Positions 46,198 to 64,000 of a stretch of 64,000 nucleotides of DNA are shown piece after piece; the stretch's first letter is position 1, and each line of letters begins with the position of its first letter. A model generated the notes under the pieces. It did no database searches and had not been told where the DNA came from. It was given only the letters and a program-made list of their open reading frames with translations. The position numbers and the translations under genes were made by a program. Source of the DNA: Miscanthus floridulus (Eukaryota; Streptophyta; Magnoliopsida; Poales; Poaceae); contig NC_089591.1 of NCBI RefSeq assembly GCF_019320115.1, positions 22,422,502 to 22,486,501 of the forward strand, written 5' to 3'.

Positions 46198-49100
46198 TGG
46201 CAGAACCTCCTAAATTATAGGGCCCACATGCACCTGTCACTGTCCAATGACCTCTAACGACTATGCATATGTTCCTGGTAACTTAAGAAGACTGTCGGGT
46301 GTCCATGGGGAACCTCGAATCATCCACGATTTTTGAGCAGGATCCCATTATAGAGTCATTACAGTATAACAACATTTATTCAAATATCTATATCAGAGTA
46401 AAATAGCAGAAGTCTTACAATAACTTAGTTTACAAACCAGTTGTTTCAAACCTTACAAACTAAGTTCGATAATTATTACAAACCATAGTAGTGGAGTGGC
46501 ATTAGTAACATAATACAAACACACAATATAAGTACCCTGACCAAGGGTCACACAGTTACTTATCATCATCGATTTGAACAAGAGTCATACAGCACGGTCC
46601 AAAGCAGACCTGCTCATGAGGCTCACCTGCAATAAGGGTCAATGAACCCTAAGTAGAAAAGTACTCAACAAGACTTAACCAAAATAAAACTGATCCGACT
46701 CAGGAATGCAGGCTCAGGGATTCAAGGTATGGCTTTAGCAATAAACAAAGTTCTTTTGCGTAAAAGCTTTGTAACAAGATTCTTTTATTCAACATGTAAA
46801 TCTATCTCAAAATCATATATGAATCTGCCATGATCCATAATGAGATCATGAACTTCATATCAAACTCTTTCTCAAGACCAGCTCCAGTTTTAGTTATTAA
46901 CTACAATAATGAACAGTGAGTTGAGTCTCCATAACCAAGGAGCAACGATGATTCAAACTGATTATAACCCAGCTGGGGATTCCCAACCACACGACATACG
47001 CAGGTGCCCGACCTACATATACCAACCCACCCTCAGATCCTCTAAAACAATAATAGGTCCGCGCCACCCGAGAATATAGTACACCATTCTAGCCCATGGC
47101 CACATGGGTACACGCTACTCTCGCCATCTCTCTACTCCTAGTGCGCGAGTAGCCATTCTCATAATAGAATAGCCAAGTTAAGGCATACCGGAGTATGTGA
47201 TCGGTACTACAAAGTCTCACCTCATGCAATTCAACAACGGACGTGCCTTAATTGACACAAGCAGAAAGAACTCGCTCACAAGACCTCCATGTCTTGTGGC
47301 TCCCATACACCGAGTCCACCCGATCTAGATTTATTACTCCACATGCTCATATCTTATGATCACATGAATAACCAGTCGTAACCAAGAAACCATTTATATC
47401 TCGTAGGTGACCGGTGATCACCCGACTTGTATCGTTCTAAGCATGGCTAAGCATAAATAAGTATTCCCGAATTGAAACAGGTATCAAGGTTGATATTGAA
47501 AAACAAGGTTGGTAATGCACCAATTAGGTTTTCACTCAACTCCTAACCACTTAATGTAGTATTAAAAAGCAAAAGCGGTAAAAACTCATAAAATACAAGG
47601 TAGGTTTAAATGCATCCGAGGCGTGCCTTGATTGACGGAAAGGTCAGGTTCCAAAGACGTTCCACAATTATCAAACCCGACCTCAACAGCCGGATTAACA
47701 TCCTCAACAACTTGATTGACTACCACATTCTCGCTTTCGTTCTCTACACGTAGTAACAATGCCATGTTTAATATGATGCGAGATATAAAACATGATGCTT
47801 GACGATGGATGCAAAAATTAATAACTGGAATACAACTTTCCTTCGCGGTATAGTTGCAAACCAACAATTAATCAAACAATTTTATAAATTCAAACACTTA
47901 CTTTAAATATCAAGAATTATTCTATACTAATGACCCAAGGTCATCACTCAATCAAAAATTCAAACAAAACATAAATTATTAAGGTTTACTATTTGCATTT
48001 ATGAATTAATTATTTAATTAAAAGATATGAAATAAATAAACTTTCTCCAATTGAGGTCAAAATTTTTATGAAGGCTTATCACATGATAACTAAGTGGCAA
48101 AACAATTTTCATAATTTTTGGATAAATAATAAAGCCTAGAAAAATCATGGAAGCTCATTTATTAATTAATTAGAGCAATTTTTATCACATGAAAAATATA
48201 CATAAAATCAAAATTTAGTATTTTTCCTAAATAGTTTACATCACATAGAGGTCACACAAAAATTTTCATAATTTTTGGGGTTCTAAATAATTCTATACAA
48301 AAATAACAAATCATAGTACTATTCATTCAATTATGCAAAATAGAAAAATCCATTTTCAAACACAGAGTCACTGACAACGGGGTCCCACATGTCAGCGTCT
48401 TCCTCCCGCATTCAACAGCGATGATCGCGGTTTGATCGCTGGTAACTCACCGCCGATGAGGTCTCCAGCCATGGCCAATGCACTACCACGTTCCCCACAT
48501 CACAACGCATCAATTGGTGGCACTAACTAGACTAATCACGGCGAGGTTCGAGCTTGACGCCGGCCATGGTGGCCACGACGGTGCGGCTGCGCTATGCTAG
48601 TGAAACAAGGCCAGTAGCGGTTAAATAAAAGGTCTAGGAAGCACCTGGAGCTCACCCCGAACACGTTCGAGCAGGAAACAGGACCAGAGAAGCAACGGTG
48701 AAGCTCGTCGTCGGTCACAGCAATCACGGCGGCACGAACAACATCGACGATGGTGCTCTAGTGACTGTGGTGGACAAAATGGTCAAGCAACAAAGCACAA
48801 AGCATCTTGGCAACAAGGCGAAGCTGAAGGGATGCTAAGCAAGGACAGATACGCACCGTGGAGCGCTGGCCACGGTGACGCGCACCCGACGGCGGTGCTA
48901 CCGGCCACGAGAAAGAAAGGCGTGCACTACGGTTTCTCGGTAGAGTCAAGCTGCAAGAGCTGGTCAGCTAGGTGCACAAGGAGCAAGCAGAGTGATGAAG
49001 GGCTTTGCTATGACTAGAATGGTGCTATGGCGATGGCACGAGCTCAACGGAGCTATGGCGGCGACGTTGGGAAAAACAGGGGAGAAGAAAAGAAGAAGAA

Positions 49101-49815: not shown

Positions 49816-49984
49816 AAGAAATCTTGTCCCGAGATTTAAAGTCCAAGGGTAAGTAATGGAAAATGAAATGTGTCGAGCGAACACATTCAAAACCTGTCCA
49901 TAAAACAGCTAGGGTCTCTTTACAAAACACGATTTGTAACGACAGAGCACAACTAACATGATTCTATATTGATGCAAGAAACTC

Positions 49985-50401
49985 TAGAAACCTTTCTAAC
50001 AAGTAATCTTCGGATTCCCAAGTAGCTTCTTCTTTGGAATGTTGATTCCATTGTATCTTGTAGAATTTGATTGTTCTCCTTCGTGTGACATGGTCTTTCT
50101 AATCTAGAACTCGGATAGGATATTCAGAATAGGTCAAATCAGGTTCAAGTTCCACTCCTTCAACCTCAATATTTTGCTCAGACACTCGAAGACACTTCTT
50201 TAATTGTGAAACATGGAACACATCATGCACAGCTAAGAGATGTTCTAGTAACTTCAAGTGATATGCCACCTTTCCATACCTCTCCAAAATTTGAAATGGT
50301 CCAATATAATGAGGTGCTAACTTTCCTTTAACACCAGAATGGGTAACTCCCTTCATTGGTGACACCTTTAGATATATAAAACCTCCTTTGTTAAACACCA
50401 A
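49985..50401 (-). pseudogene. pol: Element 3 integrase tail and chromodomain
   Basis: The minus strand has LKVSPMKGV, HYIGPFQILERYGKVAYHL (GPY/F motif) and VFHVSQLKKCLRV, then YPIRVLD, a TAG at 50099-50101, and in the same frame VTRRRTIKFYKIQW and HSKEEATWESEDYL. Apart from the single stop the chromodomain is complete, with its aromatic residues (Y, W, W). In relatives it binds methylated histone H3 and targets heterochromatin. Confidence 0.85.
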
Positions 50402-50493
50402 AGGTCTACATCATTTATCTGCATAACTATTTTGTTGGGACTAAGCTATCTTTAAATTACTTTATATTTTCCTAACCTTCTCTTCTATTTCTT

Positions 50494-51192
50494 TCACCAG
50501 GTCAACTCCAAAGACCATGTTTCCCCGGGTTCAGACCAATTTAGTGATGTTCTACATCTACGACCATAAAGTGCTTCAAACGGAGCCATTCTAATGCTCT
50601 CTTGATAACTATTGTTGTATGAGAACTCAGCCATAGGCAAACATTCATCCCACTTATTGGAATAGTTAAGGACACAACACCTTAACAAATCTTCAAGTAC
50701 TTGATTTACTCTTTCAGTCTGACCATCAGTCTGTGGATGATAAGCTGTACTATACATAAGTTTGGTACCCAACGAAGCATGCAATTGTTTCCAAAAGTTG
50801 GAGACAAACTGTGTACCTCTGTCTAACACAATGGTCTATGGTATACCATGTAAGCTCATGATTCTTGCTAAATACATCTTAGCATATTGGATAGTAGGAT
50901 ATATACTCTTGACTGGAAGAAAATGTGCTGACTTAGTTAGTCGATCTACAATAACCCATATTGAGTCAAAACCTTTTGATGTCTTGGGTAGACCGATGAT
51001 AAAGTTCATACTGATATCCTCCCACTTCCAAGATGGAATAGGCAATGGCTGTAACTCTCCAGCAGACCTCAAATGTATAGCTTTTACTTTTTGACAAGTA
51101 TCACACTTGGCTATATACCAAGTAATCTCTATCTTCATTTTGGTCCACCAAAATCTCTGTTTCAAGTCATAGTACATCTTATTACTTGGCAA
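50494..51192 (-). pseudogene. pol: Element 3 integrase core (first catalytic Asp lost)
   Basis: The CxxC zinc pair (KCDTCQKVKA) is intact. ISMNFIIGLP at about 51004 has Asn in place of the first catalytic Asp. LDRGTQFVSNF keeps the second Asp, and GQTERVNQVLEDLL keeps the Glu. A stop near 50832 separates the two halves. Inactive as it stands, but only a few changes from complete. Confidence 0.85.
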
Positions 51193-51731
51193 TAATTTGA
51201 TCTCGAATAGTTGATTTGACAGTTATATTGGTCAAACTACCTTGTTGAAATACCTCCACATTCAACTTCTCCATCTCCTGACATAAAGTCAAATTCATTG
51301 TTTTTACTATCAGACAATTGCAATGACTCTTACGACTGAGGGCATCTGCAACCACATTTGCCTTACTAGGATGGTAATGCACCTCCAAGTCATAATCTTT
51401 AATCAACTCTAACCATCTTATTTGCCGCATGTTCAATTCTGATTGAGTAAAGATATACTTTAAACTCTTGTGATCAGTATATATGGCATGTATTACCAAG
51501 CAGGTAATGCCGCCAAATCTTCAAAGCATGGACAACTGCTACTAACTCCAGATCATGAGTTGGATAATGTTCTTCATGTTGCTTAAGTTGTCTGGAAGCA
51601 TAGGCAATGACTCGGCCTTCTTGCATTAGTACACATCCAATACCAATTCCAGAAGCATCACAATAAACGTCAAACGGCTTCTCGATATCTGGCTGTGTTA
51701 ACACTGGTGCAGTGGTTAATAATCTCTTCAA
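51182..51731 (-). pseudogene. pol: Element 3 RNase H
   Basis: [40 protein letters not shown] and [11 protein letters not shown] retain the D, E and D positions, followed by [20 protein letters not shown]. There is a frame change at about 51485 between HIY and the TDHK block, and a TAG at about 51735 before the domain. Confidence 0.85.
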
Positions 51732-51734
51732 AGT

Positions 51735-53099: not shown

Positions 53100-54262
53100 T
53101 TCCCCTTCTGGAATCTCCCTAGCTTGAATATAGAAAACCTGCCCTGTCTTCTTTTCATCTTTGCCCTTCTGAGCATTTTGGTGGTTGTTCTTGTTCTGAG
53201 TTTGACCCTGTTGTTGATTTCTAGGAGCCTTCTGAAAATTTGGATTGTACTACTTAGGATAGGACATTCCCTAGAGAAATGACCTGACTTCCCACAATTG
53301 AAACATGGGTAATGGTGGCCTTGGGGTGTCGAAGCACGAACACTAGGAACATTTATCTGTTGAGAGTTCGGGTAAGTTATGGCAGGACGGACATTTGGTT
53401 GTTGACCAGCTTGGAACTATGGTGGATGATAAGGAGGACAATAGTGATTCACTAGATGATAGATTATCTTCTACCTCTTTTGATTCCCACCAAAAGATCC
53501 AGATGGCACACTCTTTTTCTTTTTAATCTCCTTATGCTGCCGATATTTCTCTTCTAATGCAATAGCAATGTTAACTGCCTCATAATATGTGACATTAGTG
53601 CAGGTAGTCATCATTATCTGAAGTTTGGTATTTAGGCCATGCATGAACCACTTCTTCTTAGCATCTGTGTTAATATGTTCAGATGCATATTGTGAAAGGT
53701 GATTGAACTTGCCCACATACTGCATGATTGTCTAATCACCTTGCTTCAAAGCAAGGAACTCATCAAGCTTCATGGCCATAACTCCTTCTAGAATATAATG
53801 GGCATGGAAAGTAGTGTGGAACTTAGCCCAAGTTAACTGAACACCTATTGGTCGCATAGCCACAAGGTTTGCCCACCAAGCACCTGCTGCACCTCTGAGC
53901 TGTTTGGCAGCAAACATAGGCTTCTAGAACTCAATGCATGGAATGAGATCAAACTTTTGCTCCATGGTACGAAGCAAATCATCAGCTTCAAGCGGTTCGT
54001 CAGCCTTGGTGAATACTGGTGGTTGTGTATCCATGAAGTCAACATATGTAGCTTCTTGCCTATGATGATTACGACCATGGTTCCCTTGCATTATATTCTG
54101 ATTGCTTTGAGCTAACTCCCGAAGCAATCAAGCATTCTCCACAGTCACATTGACCAGTGCTGCGATAGCATCAGTCAAACTTGGTGGAACTAGTGGGGGA
54201 TCAGGAATACCATCCTCATCTTGCGAAGAACCAGGAACATTTGAACCCCAAGTATGATGCAT
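53100..54262 (-). pseudogene. gag: Element 3 gag (one frame, many TAG codons)
   Basis: Starts at the ATG at 54262 (MHHTWGSNVPGSSQDEDG). One frame runs almost throughout, with a TGA near 54127, then TAG at 53924, 53732, 53471 and 53417. The gag core is GAAGAWWANLVAM to MQYVGKFNHLSQYA. The zinc knuckle CFNCGKSGHFSREC at about 53270-53310 is intact. Each TAG stands where Gln (CAG) fits the surrounding sequence. It would form the particle and bind RNA. Confidence 0.85.
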
Positions 54263-54491
54263 CTATTCATAATAAACCAAACTTTATTCACAACCATTTA
54301 TTGAACTGTTAAAAGAGCTTGCTACAAACACATTACATAGGGCTCACTTATTTATACACAAGTCTGCATTTAAGCTAGACTACCCAACTAGACTAGAACT
54401 CACTATATTACAACTCTACTCTTCTCCTTGATCACCTCAAACCTCATGATCGGTATCCATTCCTGAAACATTTCCACCTTCCTCATCACTT

Positions 54492-55001
54492 TCAGTTGAC
54501 CATCACTACTTTTGGATCTTCTTCTTCTTCTTCCGCTTCATCATCATCTGCTATGATGACACCTGGGTCCATTGCATCAGCTTGAGGCTCATGATTTGGA
54601 TTTAGGAGATTATTCAGCCTATGGACTTCTTCATGTAGATCGGTATAGTATTCTTCTAAGTCTTCTACATAGAACTCTAATTCATAAGCTTGGGCTCTAG
54701 CTACATCCTCTCTATGCCAAGCTTCATTTCTTCCTTCCACCATGCGAACTAACATACGCTCGTAGTTCTTATGAGCGGTGGTGCAACACCTCAGTTGATC
54801 CTTTAACTTGCCCACCTAGATGGCATCCAAGGCCCTATCTCTAGTAGCCTGTGCTAACTCTGCTAAAAGCCTCTATACCTCAGCCTAGGGGTCAGGCCTA
54901 AAGCTGCTACTGCTAGCACCATCACTCCTAGGGGCAAGTTGGTGATGAGGAACTCCTTTGGGTCCAATGGACTTACGGGGCATTATCTTGGTACGAGCCA
55001 T
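54492..55001 (-). pseudogene. Element 3 accessory ORF upstream of gag: histone H3-tail-like N-terminus, coiled coil, acidic tail
   Basis: One frame of 170 codons from the ATG at 55001 to the stop at 54492, interrupted only by TAG at 54885, 54873 and 54816. The first residues read MARTK, three others, RKS, one, G, one, K, then after five residues QLA. The histone H3 tail has ARTK at 1-4, RKS at 8-10, G12, K14 and QLA at 19-21, so all match with a single inserted residue. A Ser-rich segment (GASSSS) follows, then a charged coiled coil (about 54810-54590: NYERMLVRMVEGRNEAWHRE, YVEDLEEYYTDLHEEVHRLN), then LNP and a D/E-rich tail (DDDEAEEEEED). There is no histone fold. Its place between primer site and gag equals that of the element 1 accessory ORF. 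Role unknown; mimicry of H3 is inference. Confidence 0.7.
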
Positions 55002-55002
55002 A

Positions 55003-55390
55003 CTGTAGAAAGCAAGATTTCAAACAGTAAGACGATCTGTTAAAATTCTAAAAAGGCAGCAAGGTTGGATTACACTACTCAACCCAGACTCACTACTCAA
55101 CCCGGACTCAGAGGGAAGTAAGTAACAAATGGATTAATCATGATGCATGAATCGTCCTTATGAAACTTAAACATCAAAGCTCCTAAGGTATATAAACAAT
55201 AGTTCATATAATATAGGGCATAATAAGACTACTACTCCACCATATAAAGCCTTTTTAATCAAATAAGGAATGGCAAGAATGAATTAAGATAAGTTGGAAG
55301 CAATTTGGACCAAATTAATATGTTAAATTTATTTGTCCCAAATCGTTTTGAAGTTTTGTAAAACAATACTACAAAAACCTTGTAATGATC
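55003..55390 (-). other. Element 3 leader
   Basis: About 390 bases between primer site and accessory ORF without a credible reading frame. It would be the 5' untranslated part with dimerisation and packaging signals. A near-perfect 22-base tandem repeat (ACTACTCAACCC...GACTC) lies at about 55073-55110. Confidence 0.45.
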
Positions 55391-55402
55391 GCTCTGATAC
55401 CA
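55391..55402 (-). promoter_or_regulatory. Element 3 primer-binding site (iMet)
   Basis: On the minus strand TGGTATCAGAGC, an exact initiator-Met tRNA primer site, five bases from the 5' LTR end. Confidence 0.9.
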
Positions 55403-55407
55403 CTCTA

Positions 55408-56418
55408 TGGCAGAACCTCCTAAATTATAGGGCCCACATGCACCTGTTACTATCCAATGACCTCTGATGACTATGTATATGTTCCTGGTAACTTAAGAAG
55501 ACTATTGGGTGTCCACGGGGAACCCCGAATCATCCATGATTTCTGAGCAGGATCCCATTATAGAGTCATTGCAGTATAACAATATTTATTCAAATGTCTA
55601 CATTAGAGTAAAATAGCAGAAGTCTTACAATAACTTAGTTTACAAACCAGTTGTTTCAAACCTTACAAACTAAGTTTGATAATTATTATAAACCATAGTA
55701 GTGGAGTGGCATTAGTAACATAATACAAACACACAATATAAGTACTCTGCCCAAGGGTCACACAGTTACTTATCATCATCGATTTGAACAAGAGTCATGC
55801 AGCACTGGTCCAAAGCAGACATGCTCATGAGGCTCACCTGCAACAAGGGTCAACGAACCCTGAGTACAAAAGTACTCAACAAGACTTAACCGAAATAAGA
55901 CTGATCTGACTCAGGAATGCAGACTTAGGGATTCAAGGTATGGCTTTAGCAATAAACAAAGTTCTTTTGCGTAAAAGCTTTCTAACAAGATTCTTTTATT
56001 CAACATGTAAATCTGTCTCAAAATCATATATGAATCTCTTTCTCAAGACTAGCTCCAGCTTCAGTTATTAACTACGATGATGAACAGTGAGTTGAGTCTC
56101 CATAATCGAGGAGCAACGATGAATCAAACTGATTATAACCCAGCTGGGGATTCCCAACCACACGACATATGCAGGCCCCCGACCTACATATACCAACCCA
56201 CCCTCAGATCCTCTAAAACAAGAACAGGTCCACGCCACCCAAGAATATAGTACTCCACCATTCCAGCCCATGGCCACGTGGGTACACACTACTCTCACCA
56301 TCTCTCCACTCCTAGTGCATGAGTAGCCATTCTCATAATAGAATAGCCAAGTTAAGGCTTACCGGAGTATGTGATCGGTACTACAAAGTCTCACCTCATG
56401 CAATTCAACAACGGACAT
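55408..56418 (-). repeat. Element 3 5' LTR, first kilobase, truncated by element 4
   Basis: Matches 46198-47235 of the left LTR with mostly C/T and G/A differences and a short deletion near 56035 (about 35 bases present at 46829-46863 are missing). It ends at CAACAACGGACAT, where element 4 starts. The remaining 2.6 kb is expected right of the window. Confidence 0.9.
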
Positions 56419-57785
56419 TGATATGACCACGTCATCAACCAACATGTTACAACCTCCAATTCAAGTAATACGAACTCAAGTATCACCTACATCGACACCA
56501 GCCCAAGCCTTTGGTGGTCCAATTACACGTAGTCGAGCAAAGAAGCTACAACAAGAGGTGAACGCGCTACTTTATGAAGTTCGATTTAATATTAATGAGA
56601 ATTATATACTGCCTAAGTCATGCACGTTGTTGTTGCTCAGGTTCACTAAAGAGTATGGCAAGAACACACAAGGTGATGACCACAGAGAAGAACCACACTC
56701 GAACCAGCCCAGTCCTGCAGAACAGTCGAAAAGAAATATTCATAACTTTTGATTTCCAGAAGCTATGAAGGTGAATGAGCACATTTTAGAAAGCTTGTCG
56801 AGTCTACTTTCCAATGATGCTAATGCCAACTAGCTTGGACTTCTAACTAATGAAATCCGACCAGCTTAGTACATACTGGTCAGACCTCTTGAAACTGATA
56901 GAACTATCAAGAAGAAAATATCATAACTTTTTATTCCCGAAGGCTATGGAGGTCCATGAGGACTTTTTGGAAAGCTTGTGAAATCTAGTTTCTAATGCTT
57001 CAATGCCAACCAGATCCGACCAGTTTTAGTGCAGATCCGACCAGCTTTAGTGAAGACTGCTCAGAGGGTTAACAGTCTTCTCAAGACATGATATTGGTAC
57101 AACTTCTCATATTAAATTGTACCATTCTACAATGTTTCGTGGTGCATTCTATACATGGTGTGAAACCTTATCAAGTTATCTTTCCAACGCAACCAACCAC
57201 ACGTCTTTTGGAGTTTCCAAGATGGAGTTATTACCAAAACATTGAAGACTGCGCAGAAGACCAACAGCCACTGCGGAAACTGCTCAGAAACCTATTTCGT
57301 GGAAGTCTGTTCACATAGCCTACCCTTTCGTTTTCTTTTCATGTTTATACCTATCTAGGAGGGCTGTTCCTAGTATAAATATCCATGTACTCCTAAGCAA
57401 AATAGGACTTTTGATAATCAAAATACAGAACCCCCCTTGTTCAGCTGTGTGCTAACAAATATTGAGAGTAATCTCTACCCCTTTGCTCTTGTGATTTCCT
57501 TCACGAGATTTACAGAAGTGGCGGCTTCATCCGCTCCCAATTGGTGCTCCTACTCCCTTCAAGGTTTGCCTTGATTGATTGTAGGTTGTGTTGGTTGGTT
57601 CTTTGAGAGTGTGGTTGGGCAAATCCTTGATCCAGGTTGCCGGTTAAAGACAGTGGTTGGCTTTGAGTTTTATTTGCCAGGTTGCCCTAGTTATCGCTGC
57701 CTACAGCAAGTTATCTAGCTGTTCTTCAGCTAGTTATCTGGTGATTGATCCTACGTCATGAAGATCGGGACCTCGTATCGTATCA
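56419..57785 (+). repeat. Element 4 5' LTR (1,367 bp)
   Basis: TGATATGACC to CGTATCA. The first 640 bases match 63357-64000 with few differences. A TATAAATAT string at about 57374-57382 is a likely core promoter. The first 330 bases are an open frame in the same register as the end of pol in the 3' LTR. Confidence 0.85.
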
Positions 57786-57787
57786 TC

Positions 57788-57799
57788 TGGTATCAAAGC
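57788..57799 (+). promoter_or_regulatory. Element 4 primer-binding site (iMet type)
   Basis: TGGTATCAAAGC, one change from TGGTATCAGAGC, two bases after the LTR. Confidence 0.85.
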
Positions 57800-58706
57800 T
57801 TTCATTAGCATGGTAGGATTCTTTACCCTTAGCTACATATATTTTGTGTTCGTCCTATCCACTAAAAAGCCACAAAAATATTTGCCATAGCCCTTTGTTT
57901 CAATCTGTTATTTTAGTGAGTTTTGTTAAGTTTCAGTCCATTAGAGTCTTGTTTTAGTTGCTGATCATTTTTTCCTTTGCGTGTCCTTTGTGCCTCTTTC
58001 ATATATATAAAAATTCCCACAAAAAAAATATGAAACTCATATCATCTCCTTCGCGTAAACTTTGATCCTGTCAAAATATAGCTACTGGTTACTTTCATTT
58101 CTATCATAAAGTGTGCAAGTGTTATATCTGGTCCCCGTATTTAGTTCTATAAAGAAAGTGCAAAAAAGAGAATTGAGAAAAGTTGTGAAAGAAAAATTGA
58201 AGATCAGTTGGTTTATGTGCACAAGTGCTGAAAGTTTTTCATATCAAGTGAGTAACCAGTTTGCTATCTTTGTTTGGTGCAAATTTTGGTTGGGTCTGAT
58301 CGCAACACTTGCATCCCAATCATACTCCTTGTTTGCATCAAATCTGAAATCTCTTTGCGCATGTGTTTGATCTATTTACATCATTCATATCCTGTGGTCA
58401 GCACTAGGCAGAGAACTTCTAGTTTGGATTGTTATTTAACTTTACAACAACTAGATTTCAGATTGCATTCCTTGTGTATCACTCCCTACCAAGCTCCACA
58501 TACAAGCCATCGTAATCGGTACTCTCTAGTCTTGTATTCACCTAGCCATCACTTTTGTTACCACCACACACTGTTTTTTTTTCTGTAACCCATAAGGACT
58601 TCATAAGAGCTTCAGTTGGTATGAGAGATGAGGTTGTGAGAGCTACCAAATTTTATTTTTTCCCATAAATACCTATTGTTCGTATTCAGCTAACCTTACA
58701 CAGGAG
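57800..58706 (+). other. Element 4 leader
   Basis: About 900 AT-rich bases with no convincing gene. Short open frames at 58113-58588 lack motifs and a second copy for comparison. Probably untranslated leader. Confidence 0.5.
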
Positions 58707-60062
58707 ATGGGTGGTGTTGAGATAGAAGATTGTGTTACTATGGCACAATTTAATGAACTCTGGCAAAGCATGGAAGAGAAGCAAGATCGGTTAACCCGAG
58801 ATCTTCAGGCTCTTTTGACTGAAATCAGAGGGCGTCGTCAACCTCATGATGGTGCAAGCAACCATGGTGAAGATGGAGAAGATAGTGATGGAAGAGCTGC
58901 TGCTAGAAGAGCAAGAGAGCAAGTAAGGAGAAACCAAGGTGCTGCACATGGTAGAGGAAGAGGACGAGGTCGAAGAAATGATGACAGTGATGAATCTAAA
59001 GATGTGGATGAAGATAATAATTCCCAATATCATGGTGGTCGCCGACATCATAGAAGAGGTAACCATGAGGAGAGGTTTGGCAAACTAAAATTTACCATGC
59101 CAAAATTTGATGGAGGATCTGATCCTGAAGCTTACTTCACTTGGGAGTTGAAGGTGGACAAGATATTTCGCTTGCATAATTATTCAGAGGAGAAGAAATT
59201 AGCCATGGCATCTCTTGAGTTTGATGGATATGCTCTGATATGGTGGGAACAACTTCCGCGTGATCAAGAAGAAGATGGAGAAAACCCTATTGCAACATGG
59301 GATGAGATGAAGCAAGAAATGAGAATTCGTTTTGTGCCAAAGCACTATCGGCGTGATCTTTTTGATAAATTGTAGAATCTGAAGCAAGGAAGCCTCTCTA
59401 TTGAGGAGTATTATAAAGAGATGGAGAAAGCTATGATTAGAGCCAATGTGTGTGAAGATGAAGAGCAAACTATTGCACGTTTCATGGCTGGGTTACATCG
59501 CAATATCCAGCGCATTGTTGAGTTTCATCCGTACCGTCATCTTATTGATTTGGTACATCAAGCAACTAAAGCTGAACGTCAATTGCAGCAAGATGCTAAG
59601 AACTGCAAGCCCTTGTCATATGGTACAAGGACTATGTCAGGAGGGGGCAAGTCAATCTCGAGGTTTACTACTGCACCCTCATCAGCGAAAAGCTCAAGTG
59701 GAGACTTATGTTCTAATGTGCAGGGTATTTTTAGAGGGAAGAATGCTGCTGCCCAAGGCATGAGCTCTAAACCATCAGCATCCACCACTACTTCAGTGGG
59801 TTCTACAGCCAAGAGTAGTGGGATTCAATGCTTCAAGTGTGGAGGTCGTGGGCATGTAATCAAGGAGTGTCCAAATAATCATGTGATCATTGTGAAAGAC
59901 AATGGAGAATATGAATCAGCTAGTGAAGAGGAAGTTGAGGAAGAGTATGATGATGAGGCTCATGAAGATGAGGAACATACTAGATGTGAATTTGAGCAAG
60001 GTGCTGCTGTTGTGGTGGCTCAAATTTTGAGCGTTCAAATGAAGGAAGCTGAAAATGGATAG
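58707..60062 (+). pseudogene. gag: Element 4 gag (one internal TAG)
   Basis: Start ATG at 58707 (MGGVEIEDCVTMAQF). A 452-codon frame has a single TAG at 59373 and another TAG at 60060, after which the frame continues into protease. The N-terminal third is alternately basic and acidic (AAARRAREQVRR, HGRGRGRGRR, DDSDES). The gag core runs KFDGGSDPEAYFTWELKVDKI to IWWEQL and RFVPKHYRRDLFDKL. The zinc knuckle CFKCGGRGHVIKEC is at 59830-59871, followed by a Glu/Asp-rich end. Near-intact. Confidence 0.9.
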
Positions 60063-60400
60063 CAACATAATCTTTTTCAAACCAGAGCTAAAGTGCAAGA
60101 TAAGGTAGTCAAGGTGATCATTGATGGTGGGATCTGCCATAATATTGCTAGTCGTGAGATGGTTGACAAGCTTGGTTTGAAACTATAGTGGCACCCTCAT
60201 CCCTATCATGTCCAATGGTTGAATGATTCAGGAGATATTAAGATTGGATATAGAGTAAAGGTTCCATTCAAAATTGGTGAATATGTTGACACAGTAGAGT
60301 GTGATGTGGCATCGATGTCTATGTGCCACTTGCTGCTTGGAAGACCTTGGCAATATGATCGATATACTCAGCATTGTGGGAGAACAAATTAGTACACACT
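60063..60400 (+). pseudogene. pol: Element 4 aspartic protease
   Basis: Same frame as gag. VIIDGGICHNIASREMVDKLG (about 60115-60175) carries the catalytic Asp, and CHLLLGRPWQYDR (about 60325-60362) the second block. TAG codons at 60186 and 60390 interrupt it. Confidence 0.8.
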
Positions 60401-60404
60401 AGAT

Positions 60405-61445
60405 TTGAAAGGAAAGAAGTTTGTACTCAAGCCTATGATGCCTCAACAAATCATGGCTGAGCACTTACAAAAGCAAACTAAAATTAGTCCGGCAAGTGAA
60501 GGAAGAGAAGAGCAAAAGAAATTGAGTGCCATCCACAATTCGGTGAGTGAGTGCCACAAGCCAAATTTGAGAGATAAAAAGAAAGGAGAGGGAGAGCATC
60601 TAGTTATGCTAGCCACAAAATCTGAGCTGAGAGAAGTGAGGGACAACCCAGATCAAGTGCTCTTTGTACTTATGTGCAAAGACATTTTAATTTCACCTAA
60701 TGATATCACCTCTCTTCCTAGTGTTGTGTCTCATCTTTTGCAGGACTATGAAGACATTTTTCCAAAAGAAACACCAGCTGGACTACCTCCCATTTGTGGA
60801 ATTGAACATCAAATTGATCTCATTCCAGGGTCTGCACTCCCTAACCGTCCACCATACCGCACCAATCCTAAAGAAACAAAAGAAATACAAAGGCAAGTAC
60901 AAGAACTTCTTGATAAAGGTTTTGTTCGTGAAAGCTTAAGTCCTTGTGCTATTCCTATGATATTAGTGCCTAAAAAGGATGGTTCTTGGAGGATGTGTGT
61001 TGACTGTAGAGCTATAAATAATATCACTGTTCGCTATAGTCATCCTATTCCACGGTTAGATGATTTGCTTGATGAATTGAGTGGTTCCATAATATTTACT
61101 AAAATTGACTTGAGAAGTGGTTACCATCAAATTAGAATGAAAGCGGGAGATGAATGGAAAACTGCATTTAAAACTAAATTTGGGCTGTATGAATGGTTAG
61201 TTATGCCTTTTGGTTTGACTAATGCCCCTAGTACTTTCATGAGATTAATGAACCATGTCCTGCGAGCTTTCATTGGAAAATTTGTTGTTGTCTACTTTGA
61301 TGATATTCTAATTTACAGCAAGTCTGTTGGAGAGCATATGAAACACAGTCAGCAAGTCTTGGATGAAAGGAGAAATTATTTGCTAATCTTGAGAAGTGCA
61401 GTTTTTGCACAGACCATGTTGTGTTTCTTGGCTTTGTTGTATTAG
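60405..61445 (+). pseudogene. pol: Element 4 reverse transcriptase
   Basis: A 346-residue open segment: the linker VVSHLLQDYEDIFPKE, then [65 protein letters not shown] and YFDDILIYS at about residue 297, with both catalytic Asp residues. A frame change near 61360 moves the end (FLGFVV) into another frame. Catalytic parts look intact. Confidence 0.9.
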
Positions 61446-62161
61446 AAAAGGGCATAGAAGTAGATGAATCAAAGGTGAAAGCCATCAAGGATTGGCCAAC
61501 TCCTACGAATGTAAGTCAAGTAAGAAGTTTTCATGGCCTTGCTAGTTTTTATAGGAGATTTGTGAGAGATTTTAGTACCATCGCTGCTCCTTTGAATGAA
61601 TTGACAAAGAAAGGGGTTGATTTTAAATGGGGGAACTCACAAGAAGCTGCTTTTCAAGAATTAAAGAAATGTTTGACTGAAGCACCATTGCTTGTTCTTC
61701 CTAATTTCACTAAAACTTTTGAAGTAGAATGTGATGCTAGTGGAATTGGGATAGGAGGAGTTTTAATGCAACAAGGAAAACTAGTAGCATATTTTAGTGA
61801 AAAATTGGGAGGTGCCCAATTAAATTATTCTGTGTATGACAAAGAATTGTATGCTTTGGTGCGTGTACTTGAGACATGGCAGCACTACTTATGGCCGAAG
61901 GAGTTTGTTATTCATTCTAATCATGAAGCTTTGAAGTAGTTGAAGGGACAAGCTAAGCTGAATCGGCACCATGCCAAGTGGGTTGAGTTCATCGAAACAT
62001 TTCCATACATTGTGAAATATAAGAAAGGTAAGGACAATGTGGTTGCTGATGCTTTTTCTCGAAAGAGTGTGTTGTTAAATCAACTTGAAGTCAAGGTGTT
62101 GGGTCTTGAAAGTTTGAAAGGTTTGTATAATAATGATCCTGAATTTTTCAGAACCGTATAA
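61421..62161 (+). pseudogene. pol: Element 4 RNase H
   Basis: The RT connection [18 protein letters not shown] is followed by [13 protein letters not shown] and [19 protein letters not shown]. The third site reads HSNHEALK at about 61918, with Asn where relatives have Asp (one G-to-A change). A TAG at 61937 follows directly; then [10 protein letters not shown] and [14 protein letters not shown] to 62161. Inactivated. Confidence 0.85.
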
Positions 62162-62189
62162 TCATTGTAAAGATGGAAAAGGTTGGGAA

Positions 62190-63353
62190 AAATATCACAT
62201 ACATGATGGATTTCTGTTTAGAGCTAACAAGCTTTGTGTTCCAAATTCTTCTGTTAGATTGTTTTTGTTGCAGGAATCACATGGAGGTGGACTAACTAGG
62301 TCATTTTAGACAGAAGAAAACATATGAACTGCTAGGTGATCATTTCTATTGGCCTAAGATGAGGAGAGATGTCATCAGATTTGTGGAACGATGCATCACC
62401 TGTCACAAAGCTAAGTCAAAATTAAATCCTCATGGCTTATACACTCCCTTACCTGCTCCTAACATTCCTTAGGAAGACATAAGCATGGATTTTATTTTAG
62501 GGTTACCTAGAACTCAGAGAGGAAAGGATTCTATATTCGTTGTGGTTGATAGATTTTCAAAGATGGCTCATTTTATCCCCTACAACAAGAGCGACGATGC
62601 TTCACATGTTGCTAATTTATTTTTTAGGGAAATTGTGAGGCTACATGGGATGCCCAGAACCATTGTGTCTGATCGTGATCTCAAGTTCGTGAGCTATTTT
62701 CGGAAAACATTATGGGCTAAACTTGGAACCAAGCTCTTGTTCTCAACAACTTGTCACCCTCAAACCGACGGACAAACTGAGGTGGTTAATCGTACATTGT
62801 CAATGTTGCTGCGAACCATGGTGAAAAAGAACTTGAAGATTTGGGAGGATTGCTTGCCACATGTGGAGTTTGCTTATAATAGGGCAGTACACTCTACCAC
62901 TAACTTGTGTCCTTTTGAAATCGTATATGGTTTCAAACCTATTGCTCCGATCAATTTGTTGCCCCTTCCATTGTAGGAGAGAATCAACATGGAAGCTTCC
63001 AAGCATGCTGCATATGTAAAGAAGATACATGAGAAGACCAAGGAAGCAATTGAACTAAGTGCTAAACGCAAGGCTACAAGTATGAACAAACATAGGAAGA
63101 AAGTGTTATTCGAACCAGGGGACTTGGTGTGGATACATTTGCACAAGGATCGCTTCCCTGATAAGCGCAAATCCAAATTGTTGCCTCGAGGAGATGGACC
63201 ATTCCGTGTTTTTGCAAAGATCAATGATAATGCATACAAGATAGATCTTCCAGCAAGCTATGGTGTGAGTACGACCTTCAATGTTGCTGACTTATCGCCA
63301 TTCATAAGAGAAGACGGATTAGAGTCGAGGATGACTCCTTTTCAAAAGGGGGA
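62190..63353 (+). pseudogene. pol: Element 4 integrase
   Basis: The zinc domain (62240-62410; YWPKMRRDVIRFVERCITCHKAK) includes the CxxC pair but is crossed by a frame change near 62300 and a TAG at 62470. The core 62485-62976 is open with [23 protein letters not shown] and [10 protein letters not shown], the complete DD35E set. After a TAG at 62974 the C-terminal part (62989 onward) has LPRGDGPFRVFAKINDNAYKIDLP and FNVADLSPF. No FYKVQW chromodomain follows. Confidence 0.9.
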
Positions 63354-63356
63354 GGA
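63343..63356 (+). promoter_or_regulatory. Element 4 polypurine tract, inside the coding frame
   Basis: AAAAGGGGGAGGA directly before TGATATGACC. The pol frame passes through it as QKGEDD and goes on into the LTR. Confidence 0.85.
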
Positions 63357-64000
63357 TGATATGACCATGTCATCAACCAACATGTTACAACCTCCAATTC
63401 AAGTAACACCAACTCAAATATCACCTACATCGACACCAGCCCAAGCCTTTGGTGGTCCAATTACACGTAGTCGAGCAAAGAAGCTACAACAAGAGGTGAA
63501 CGTGCTACTTTATGAAGTTCAATTTAATATTAATGAGAATTATATACTGCCTAAGTCGTGCACGTTGTTGTTGCTCAGGTTCAATAAAGAGTATGGCAAG
63601 AACACACAAGGTGATGACCATAGAGAAGAACCACACTCGAACCAGACCAGTCCTGTAGAACAGTCGGAAAGAAATATTCATAACTTTTGATTTCCAGAAG
63701 CTATGAAGGTGAATGAGCACATTTTGGAAAGCTTGTCGAGTCTACTTTCCAATGATGCTAATGCCGACCAGCTTGGACTTCTAACTAATGAAATCCGACC
63801 AGCTTAGTACGTACTGGTTAGACCTCTTGAAACTGACAGAACTGTCAAGAAGAAAATATCATAACTTTTTATTCCCGAAGGCTATGGAGGTCCATGAGGA
63901 CTTTTTGGAAAGCTTGTGAAATCTAGTTTCTAATGCTTCAAGGCCGACCAGATCTGACCAGTTTTAGTGCAGATCCGACCAGCTTTTGTGAAGACTGCTC
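63357..64000 (+). repeat. Element 4 3' LTR, first 644 bp
   Basis: Starts TGATATGACC and repeats 56419-57062 with few differences. The window ends before its right end, so the target duplication cannot be checked. The pol frame continues to a stop at 63688, giving about 110 LTR-encoded residues with GPITRSRAKKL near 63450. Confidence 0.9.

Follow-up and report, generated by a model that had tools for sequence, protein, structure and literature searches.

The H3-tail-like start of a Miscanthus retrotransposon ORF0: probable capture of a histone exon and possible mimicry

Why should a plant retrotransposon encode a protein that begins like the tail of histone H3? The question is raised by a 64-kb stretch of the Miscanthus floridulus genome (the window, meaning the whole stretch of DNA analysed), in which an element on the minus strand carries an additional open reading frame (ORF0) with an H3-like N-terminus; all family comparisons below come from the same genome. 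The answer that we favour, with a probability of about 0.6 for the explanation as a whole, is that ORF0 starts with a captured H3 exon that has been kept as an H3-tail mimic. The element has the following features, listed in its own 5′ to 3′ direction:

55408–56416, minus strand: 5′ LTR, ends approximate, with direct repeats D2–D5
55391–55402, minus strand: primer binding site TGGTATCAGAGC, which we take to be of the initiator tRNA-Met type
55003–55012, minus strand: 3′ splice-site-like sequence ctttctacag, one base upstream of the ORF0 ATG
54927–55001, minus strand: H3-tail-like N-terminus of ORF0, 25 codons corresponding to the H3 methionine, residues 1–23 and one inserted residue
54495–55001, minus strand: decayed ORF0, with stops at codons 39, 43 and 62
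54495–54815, minus strand: stop-free ORF0 piece with two predicted long helices and an acidic tail
53200–54262, minus strand: decayed gag containing a CCHC zinc knuckle, limits approximate
51477–51734, minus strand: RNase H piece (PF17919, E 7.2e-29)
50839–51222, minus strand: integrase zinc-binding piece (PF17921, E 9.5e-10)
50102–50410, minus strand: integrase C-terminal SH3-like piece (PF24626, E 1.6e-22)
49967–50098, minus strand: chromodomain piece (PF00385, E 5.8e-6) with the motif EEATWESE and a stop between it and the integrase piece
46198–47242, minus strand: 3′ LTR, ends approximate

The H3-like start is real, and it is stronger than originally thought. Translation of 54390–55001 returned every residue named in the original prediction: from the minus-strand ATG at 55001, ARTK occupies positions 2–5 and RKS positions 9–11, G13 and K15 follow, and QLA stands at 21–23 after one residue that is extra relative to H3, namely V17. 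When 3,019 ATGs of the window were scored against H3 on both strands, the ORF0 ATG ranked first with 13 matching positions, the next best reaching 7. An accessory protein had also been proposed at this site; the H3-like start stands, but the copy is broken by its three stops and therefore yields no full protein itself. Stop-free ORF0 copies are present elsewhere in the genome.

The remainder of the protein fits the expected architecture. A coiled coil had been anticipated, and a single-sequence AF2 model of the stop-free piece predicts helices at residues 2–34 and 39–71 (mean pLDDT 76.7); the acidic tail is present in the translation. A fold search with the helical piece gave 211 matches at E ≤ 10 and none at E ≤ 0.001, the best 50 of the 211 being mostly helical hairpins and coiled coils, including that of LSD1; such generic helical matches are uninformative for assigning a fold. 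As predicted, a histone fold is absent and was rejected as a candidate: the Pfam matches of five stop-free ORF0s from families A–D (defined below) include no histone family.

ORF0 lies between the primer binding site, 401 nt upstream of its ATG, and the downstream gag. Ungapped blocks of the 5′ and 3′ LTRs are 92–95% identical, blocks being used because flanking sequence distorts the whole-LTR alignment. The chromodomain expected in the same element follows directly after the integrase pieces, at the integrase C-terminus, although a stop separates the two. Its EEATWESE fits the Tekay motif EEXTWEXE given in the text of PMC3350952. For the second Tekay motif, (K/R)-X-(L/T)-R-X-(k/r), the window has HVTRRR, with H at the first K/R position and the rest in agreement. 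Judged by chromodomain position and motif, the element appears to be a chromovirus of the Tekay (Del) type; families A, B and C presumably belong to the same type, pol having been read in the window element alone. A second Ty3-type element, on the plus strand at 56419–64000, abuts the first. Its direct repeat (56419–56718 and 63357–63656, 96% identical) starts 3 bases from the LTR end of the ORF0 element and holds the last part of the pol frame (ITRSRAKKLQQEV), which suggests that the pol of this second element extends into the LTR.

Database searches relate the ORF0 N-terminus to H3. With the first 32 residues of one stop-free relative as a phmmer query against 177,635 PDB sequences, 114 matches were obtained at E ≤ 10, and the best 60 of these were all H3 (best E 0.014). 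Combining 13 stop-free N-termini of family D into a profile gave 130 matches at E ≤ 10 (best E 2.7e-5), the best 60 being all H3 or H3-type, one of them Cse4. The whole 187-aa family-D protein found H3 weakly (best H3 E 0.48), after PSTPIP1 in first place (E 0.11), and the whole 329-aa family-A ORF0 gave 133 matches at E ≤ 1 (best E 3e-5), of which the best 60 were H3 or Cse4. In 21 stop-free ORF0s, identity to H3 amounts to 14–19 of 24 residues over positions 1–24 and then falls to 0–3 of 24 over positions 25–48, with the extra residue 17 of family D skipped in the count. None of 200,000 shuffles reached the observed identity for any of five ORF0s. The profile, the family-A protein and the shuffles thus each show the significant, position-matched identity to the H3 tail that characterizes an H3-tail mimic. 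Among viral contigs, 22 stretches carried the pattern, and no relative was found among them.

At least four ORF0 families, present in high copy, share the H3-like start. A search of the genome with the first 38 residues of the window copy, a member of family D, gave 4,175 first-look candidates, of which 150 were scored, and at least 150 matches. Family D was sampled from 30 places fetched by N-terminal similarity and 20 more picked for long open frames, two of which (L031 and L032) duplicate L017 and L027. In the 13 aligned stop-free family-D N-termini, whose conservation is partly a product of having been found by N-terminal similarity, M, A1, R2, T3, K4, K9, S10, G12 and the lysine at the K14 position are invariant; R8 is replaced by H or C in 3 of the 13, Q5 and A7 are lost, and T6 is lost in part. 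Twelve of these ORF0s are 186–189 aa long; L041, the thirteenth, is cut short at 164 aa.

The back-translated pattern MARTKxxxRKS matched the genome 1,564 and 1,472 times, 3,036 in total, against 0 and 0 for a reversed-pattern control; a search with the H3 core gave 72 exon-level matches (86 candidates, all scored). The 100 pattern matches listed all lie within the first 84 Mb of contig C1; 62 of them encode one identical 10-residue sequence, and in 3 residue 6 is a stop. None of the 100 overlaps a listed host H3-core match, those on C1 lying beyond 118 Mb. The first 30 of these places were fetched and sorted into families by eye: 10 belong to family A, 6 to family B, with the variant L065 beside them, 10 to family C and 3 to family D, and copies vary. 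All 30 have an upstream primer site matching at 10–12 of 12 bases, at a distance from the ATG of 401–402 nt in family D and 742–793 nt in the others.

Each of the four families opens with ARTK directly after the methionine; in family C the start reads MARTK followed by R or L. In most copies compared of families A and B, H3 residues 1–13 are exact. Families A, B and C carry R at K14 and are without K18. ORF0 reaches up to 329 aa in family A and 308 aa in family B, and is about 190 aa long in family C. The families have in common an acidic tail and, around RNEAW...NLHEEVH, a stretch of coiled coil. A family-D-like gag follows in 9 of the 10 family-C loci (pieces 35–51% identical); no gag match was obtained for family A and B loci within the fetched stretch, which ends about 500 nt past ORF0. 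In families A and B, about 150 additional residues (TFLSEFGMPTLLWRVL...), a middle domain of their own, separate the H3 tail from the coiled coil, as seen in L052, L072 and L078 (family A) and in L067 and L068 (family B); a Pfam scan of the 329- and 307-aa ORF0s returned nothing above cut-off, leaving this domain without a match. One further place, L132 (C1:195076980-195077820), with RNEAWSE towards its C-terminus, appears to represent another ORF0 family.

Is the likeness maintained as protein? The copies of families A, B and C compared here were fetched by a pattern that fixes 7 of the 16 codons, and with that sampling A (L072) and B (L068) differ over codons 2–17 by 8 synonymous and 0 nonsynonymous changes (pS 0.58, pN 0.00), against pS 0.73 and pN 0.39 in the rest of the protein. 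The nine codons not fixed by the pattern account for 5 synonymous and 0 nonsynonymous changes. Over codons 2–24 the A–B counts become 13 synonymous and 6 nonsynonymous, constraint dropping after codon 17. For both A–C and B–C, pN is 0.07 in the segment and 0.41 in the rest. Pairs with family D give 0.24–0.27 against 0.35–0.45, and family D is the most relaxed of the families, under weaker constraint.

A second sample was drawn by a motif at the other end of the protein. The C-terminal ORF0 motif pattern matched the genome 856 times (control, 7); it does not reach family D or most of family B. The first 43 distinct places comprise 8 cut out by the search and 35 of 36 picked from 100 listed, the picks following motif spellings typical of families C and A, and L094 being dropped as the same copy as L089. 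All 43 start H3-like, with 12–20 of 24 identities, at 263–299 or 758–762 nt upstream of the motif. Residues kept include A1 (42 of 43), K4 (42), K9 (43), S10 (42), G13 (43), P16 (43), L20 (43) and A21 (42), while R occupies position 14 in 42 copies and M in the remaining one. Losses fall mainly on R2 (30 of 43 kept), T3 (35), R8 (35) and G12 (32) and look like methyl-cytosine deamination of dead copies. Most ORF0 copies seen are dead. The frame is open well past the motif in 10 of the 43.

Four places added for other motif spellings yielded three further H3-like starts (17, 17 and 18 of 24); the fourth, L133, neither starts like H3 (best score 7) nor shows anything resembling ORF0 ahead of the motif, and looks like a chance match of the pattern. 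Relatives that start elsewhere or lack the H3-like start were thus looked for among 47 motif-chosen places, of which 46 start like H3 and one holds no ORF0. Within this genome, neither of the two objections foreseen in the original prediction, relatives with a different start and equally good matches at random ATGs, was borne out, no other ATG of the window coming close. Three of the 10 open-frame copies are without ARTK (L097, L104 and L105).

Between the motif-chosen copies of A (20) and C (23), codons 2–17 comprise 6 that are the same, 8 with synonymous and 2 with nonsynonymous differences (Q5 and T11). The K4 codon is AAG in 18 of the 20 family-A copies and AAA in all 23 of family C; K9 is AAG in both and so gives no synonymous evidence by itself. 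Of the positions singled out in the original prediction for a test of conservation, K4 and K9 are kept and families A, B and C show the synonymous excess; the lysine at ORF0 residue 15 (H3 K14) is R in these three families. Since the segment changes mostly synonymously between families, its H3 identity seems to be selected; by these codon comparisons it is kept at the level of the protein and not of the DNA, and selection very probably favours the H3-like sequence.

The source of the segment can be read from the host genes. In five Miscanthus H3 genes (L081–L085), which we take to be of the H3.3 type from their introns, the first coding exon ends, by sequence, after K23|GT in 5 of 5. The identity of ORF0 to H3 stops at this same exon end. 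Over the first 16 codons, the DNA of A, B, L065 and C matches three host H3 genes at 36–42 of 48 bases. Comparison of the two sequences thus clearly points to a shared coding exon, and the ORF0 N-terminus almost certainly stems from an H3 exon. In these five genes, the most heavily modified part of the H3 tail is a separate, shufflable exon.

The splice acceptor may have come along with it. An AG stands directly ahead of the ATG in 4 of the 5 host genes (absent in L085); at the ORF0 ATG it is found in all 30 fetched loci, directly in 27 and one T apart in 3, and directly in 41 of the 43 motif-chosen copies (missing in L123 and L126). Only 4–9 of the 20 bases upstream of the ATG match host H3 genes in 12 comparisons, so that a resemblance between host H3 introns and the sequence ahead of ORF0 was rejected; given this and the two copies without AG, descent of the intron end from the H3 gene is suggested by position alone. 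As the leaders of five loci contain 22–33 ATGs upstream of ORF0, its translation probably needs splicing. The leaders of L053, L054, L065, L068 and L072 also share a stretch, TGCAGGTACA(C/T), about 490–530 nt after the primer site and kept in A, B and C, which is possibly a splice site.

These observations suggest the following course. ORF0 would begin with the first coding exon of an intron-bearing, probably H3.3-type, host H3 gene. The capture would predate the divergence of the present families and may have included the splice acceptor; purifying selection would have held the exon since then as an H3-tail mimic. After removal of the methionine, A-R-T-K(4)...R-K(9)-S would be displayed as in H3, and the coiled-coil scaffold with its acidic tail could present several fake tails per complex, a multivalent display made plausible by the predicted helices. 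In H3, A1-R2-T3-K4 is the surface for PHD-type readers and K4 enzymes, and R8-K9-S10 is the K9 site that is read and written in silencing. ORF0 keeps both surfaces, with losses in some copies, while its residue 14 would not be acetylatable in families A, B and C, as K14 is R in nearly all copies seen. The protein may thus bind or titrate host writers or readers of the H3 tail (K9 methyltransferases, readers of K4 or the N-terminus, heterochromatin readers), with the outcome that silencing of the element is blunted or that its particles are tethered to chromatin. We infer translation, splicing, methionine removal, multimerisation, partner binding and effect alike, and regard action through H3-tail partners as somewhat favoured. 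The proposed mimicry has gained from the resemblance itself, its recurrence in several families, the host exon match and the protein-level conservation; the part that made the element's own chromodomain the reader has been weakened. We hold a bolder version only tentatively: that this lineage fights silencing with stolen H3.3-type tails, several per complex and with K14 changed to R in the large families, the K9-methylation and K4-reading machinery being decoyed or hijacked as a tether by element-borne H3-tail sequences that in this genome outnumber host H3 genes tens to one.

Other uses of the segment are conceivable. The real H3 tail can act as a signal for nuclear import or for histone chaperones, and the ORF0 segment might serve only in this way, bringing ORF0 or Gag into the nucleus; nuclear entry benefits any retroelement. 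The segment is basic, and the replacements of K14 and K23 by R preserve its charge. That this is the tail's only role is nevertheless unlikely, because conservation extends to the uncharged A1, T3, S10, G13 and P16 (42, 35, 42, 43 and 43 of 43) and a basic signal would not require ARTK at the extreme N-terminus in four families.

The exon could instead have supplied nothing more than a splice acceptor and a start codon, its amino-acid sequence being unused. The AG at the ATG and the many leader ATGs, which seem to call for some splicing, agree with such a passive capture, but it would not account for synonymous sites that vary while amino acids are kept, nor for conservation that extends to about codon 17, beyond any start-codon context, and we consider it quite unlikely.

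The original prediction had named the element's own chromodomain as a possible reader of the methylated tail. Tekay-type chromodomains are reported to be without the aromatic cage that binds methyl-lysine (PMC6317226, PMC3350952), and for this reason we have demoted the idea to a rival in which the tail is the partner of the element's type II chromodomain and links integrase to ORF0. Tail and chromodomain do occur in one element, and the same two sources report that no partner had been found for plant type II chromodomains; with the cage reportedly missing, we rate such an internal ligand as very unlikely. Chance or convergent likeness without descent from H3 can be dismissed as negligible: the window copy alone matches at only 13 scored positions, but the exact residues 1–13 of most A and B copies, the shuffles and the end of the match at the exon boundary all speak against it.

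Should ORF0 work as an H3 decoy, a histone mimic would for the first time, as far as open papers reach, be known from a transposon; a search of the open-licence literature by title and abstract found no H3-like transposon protein, and a subscription paper could hold one. An orphan ORF0 carried by grass chromoviruses would also gain a function, and the type II chromodomains of plants, for which PMC3350952 reports no known partner, would gain a candidate ligand. For annotators, the finding is a warning: an H3-like start occurs at thousands of places in this genome.

One close parallel is the NS1 protein of influenza A (H3N2), a viral histone mimic whose ARSK tail resembles the H3K4 region. Both are parasite proteins with a short H3-tail look-alike; unlike NS1, ORF0 matches over about 16–23 residues at the very N-terminus, corresponds to an H3 exon, and belongs to a retrotransposon in high copy. 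Another is the ORF0 of rice Retrosat2, RIRE3 and RIRE8 and its homologues in maize, sorghum and Brachypodium (Gao 2012, PMC3485330), found only in grasses within that study and left there without an assigned function. It too is an extra, fast-evolving frame upstream of gag in Ty3 elements; however, the main text of that paper is without the words histone, chromodomain and coiled and proposes metabolic enzymes, and its LTRs are given as about 3 kb, against about 1.0 kb in the window element. A survey that counted extra ORFs of at least 250 codons and reported the aromatic cage to be absent from seed-plant chromoviruses (Neumann 2019, PMC6317226) possibly holds an unremarked H3 match within its supplements. 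DNA viruses, as described in PMC9145170, encode histones and are thus another case of a viral or mobile genome with sequence related to histones, but ORF0 has the tail only, its five scanned representatives lacking a histone family match. Finally, orchid Ty3 elements carry an m6A demethylase domain, reported as a captured host gene fragment (PMC9289625). There, as here, host coding sequence has come to lie inside an LTR element; what ORF0 holds is a single 24-codon exon that encodes a regulatory tail and not an enzyme domain.
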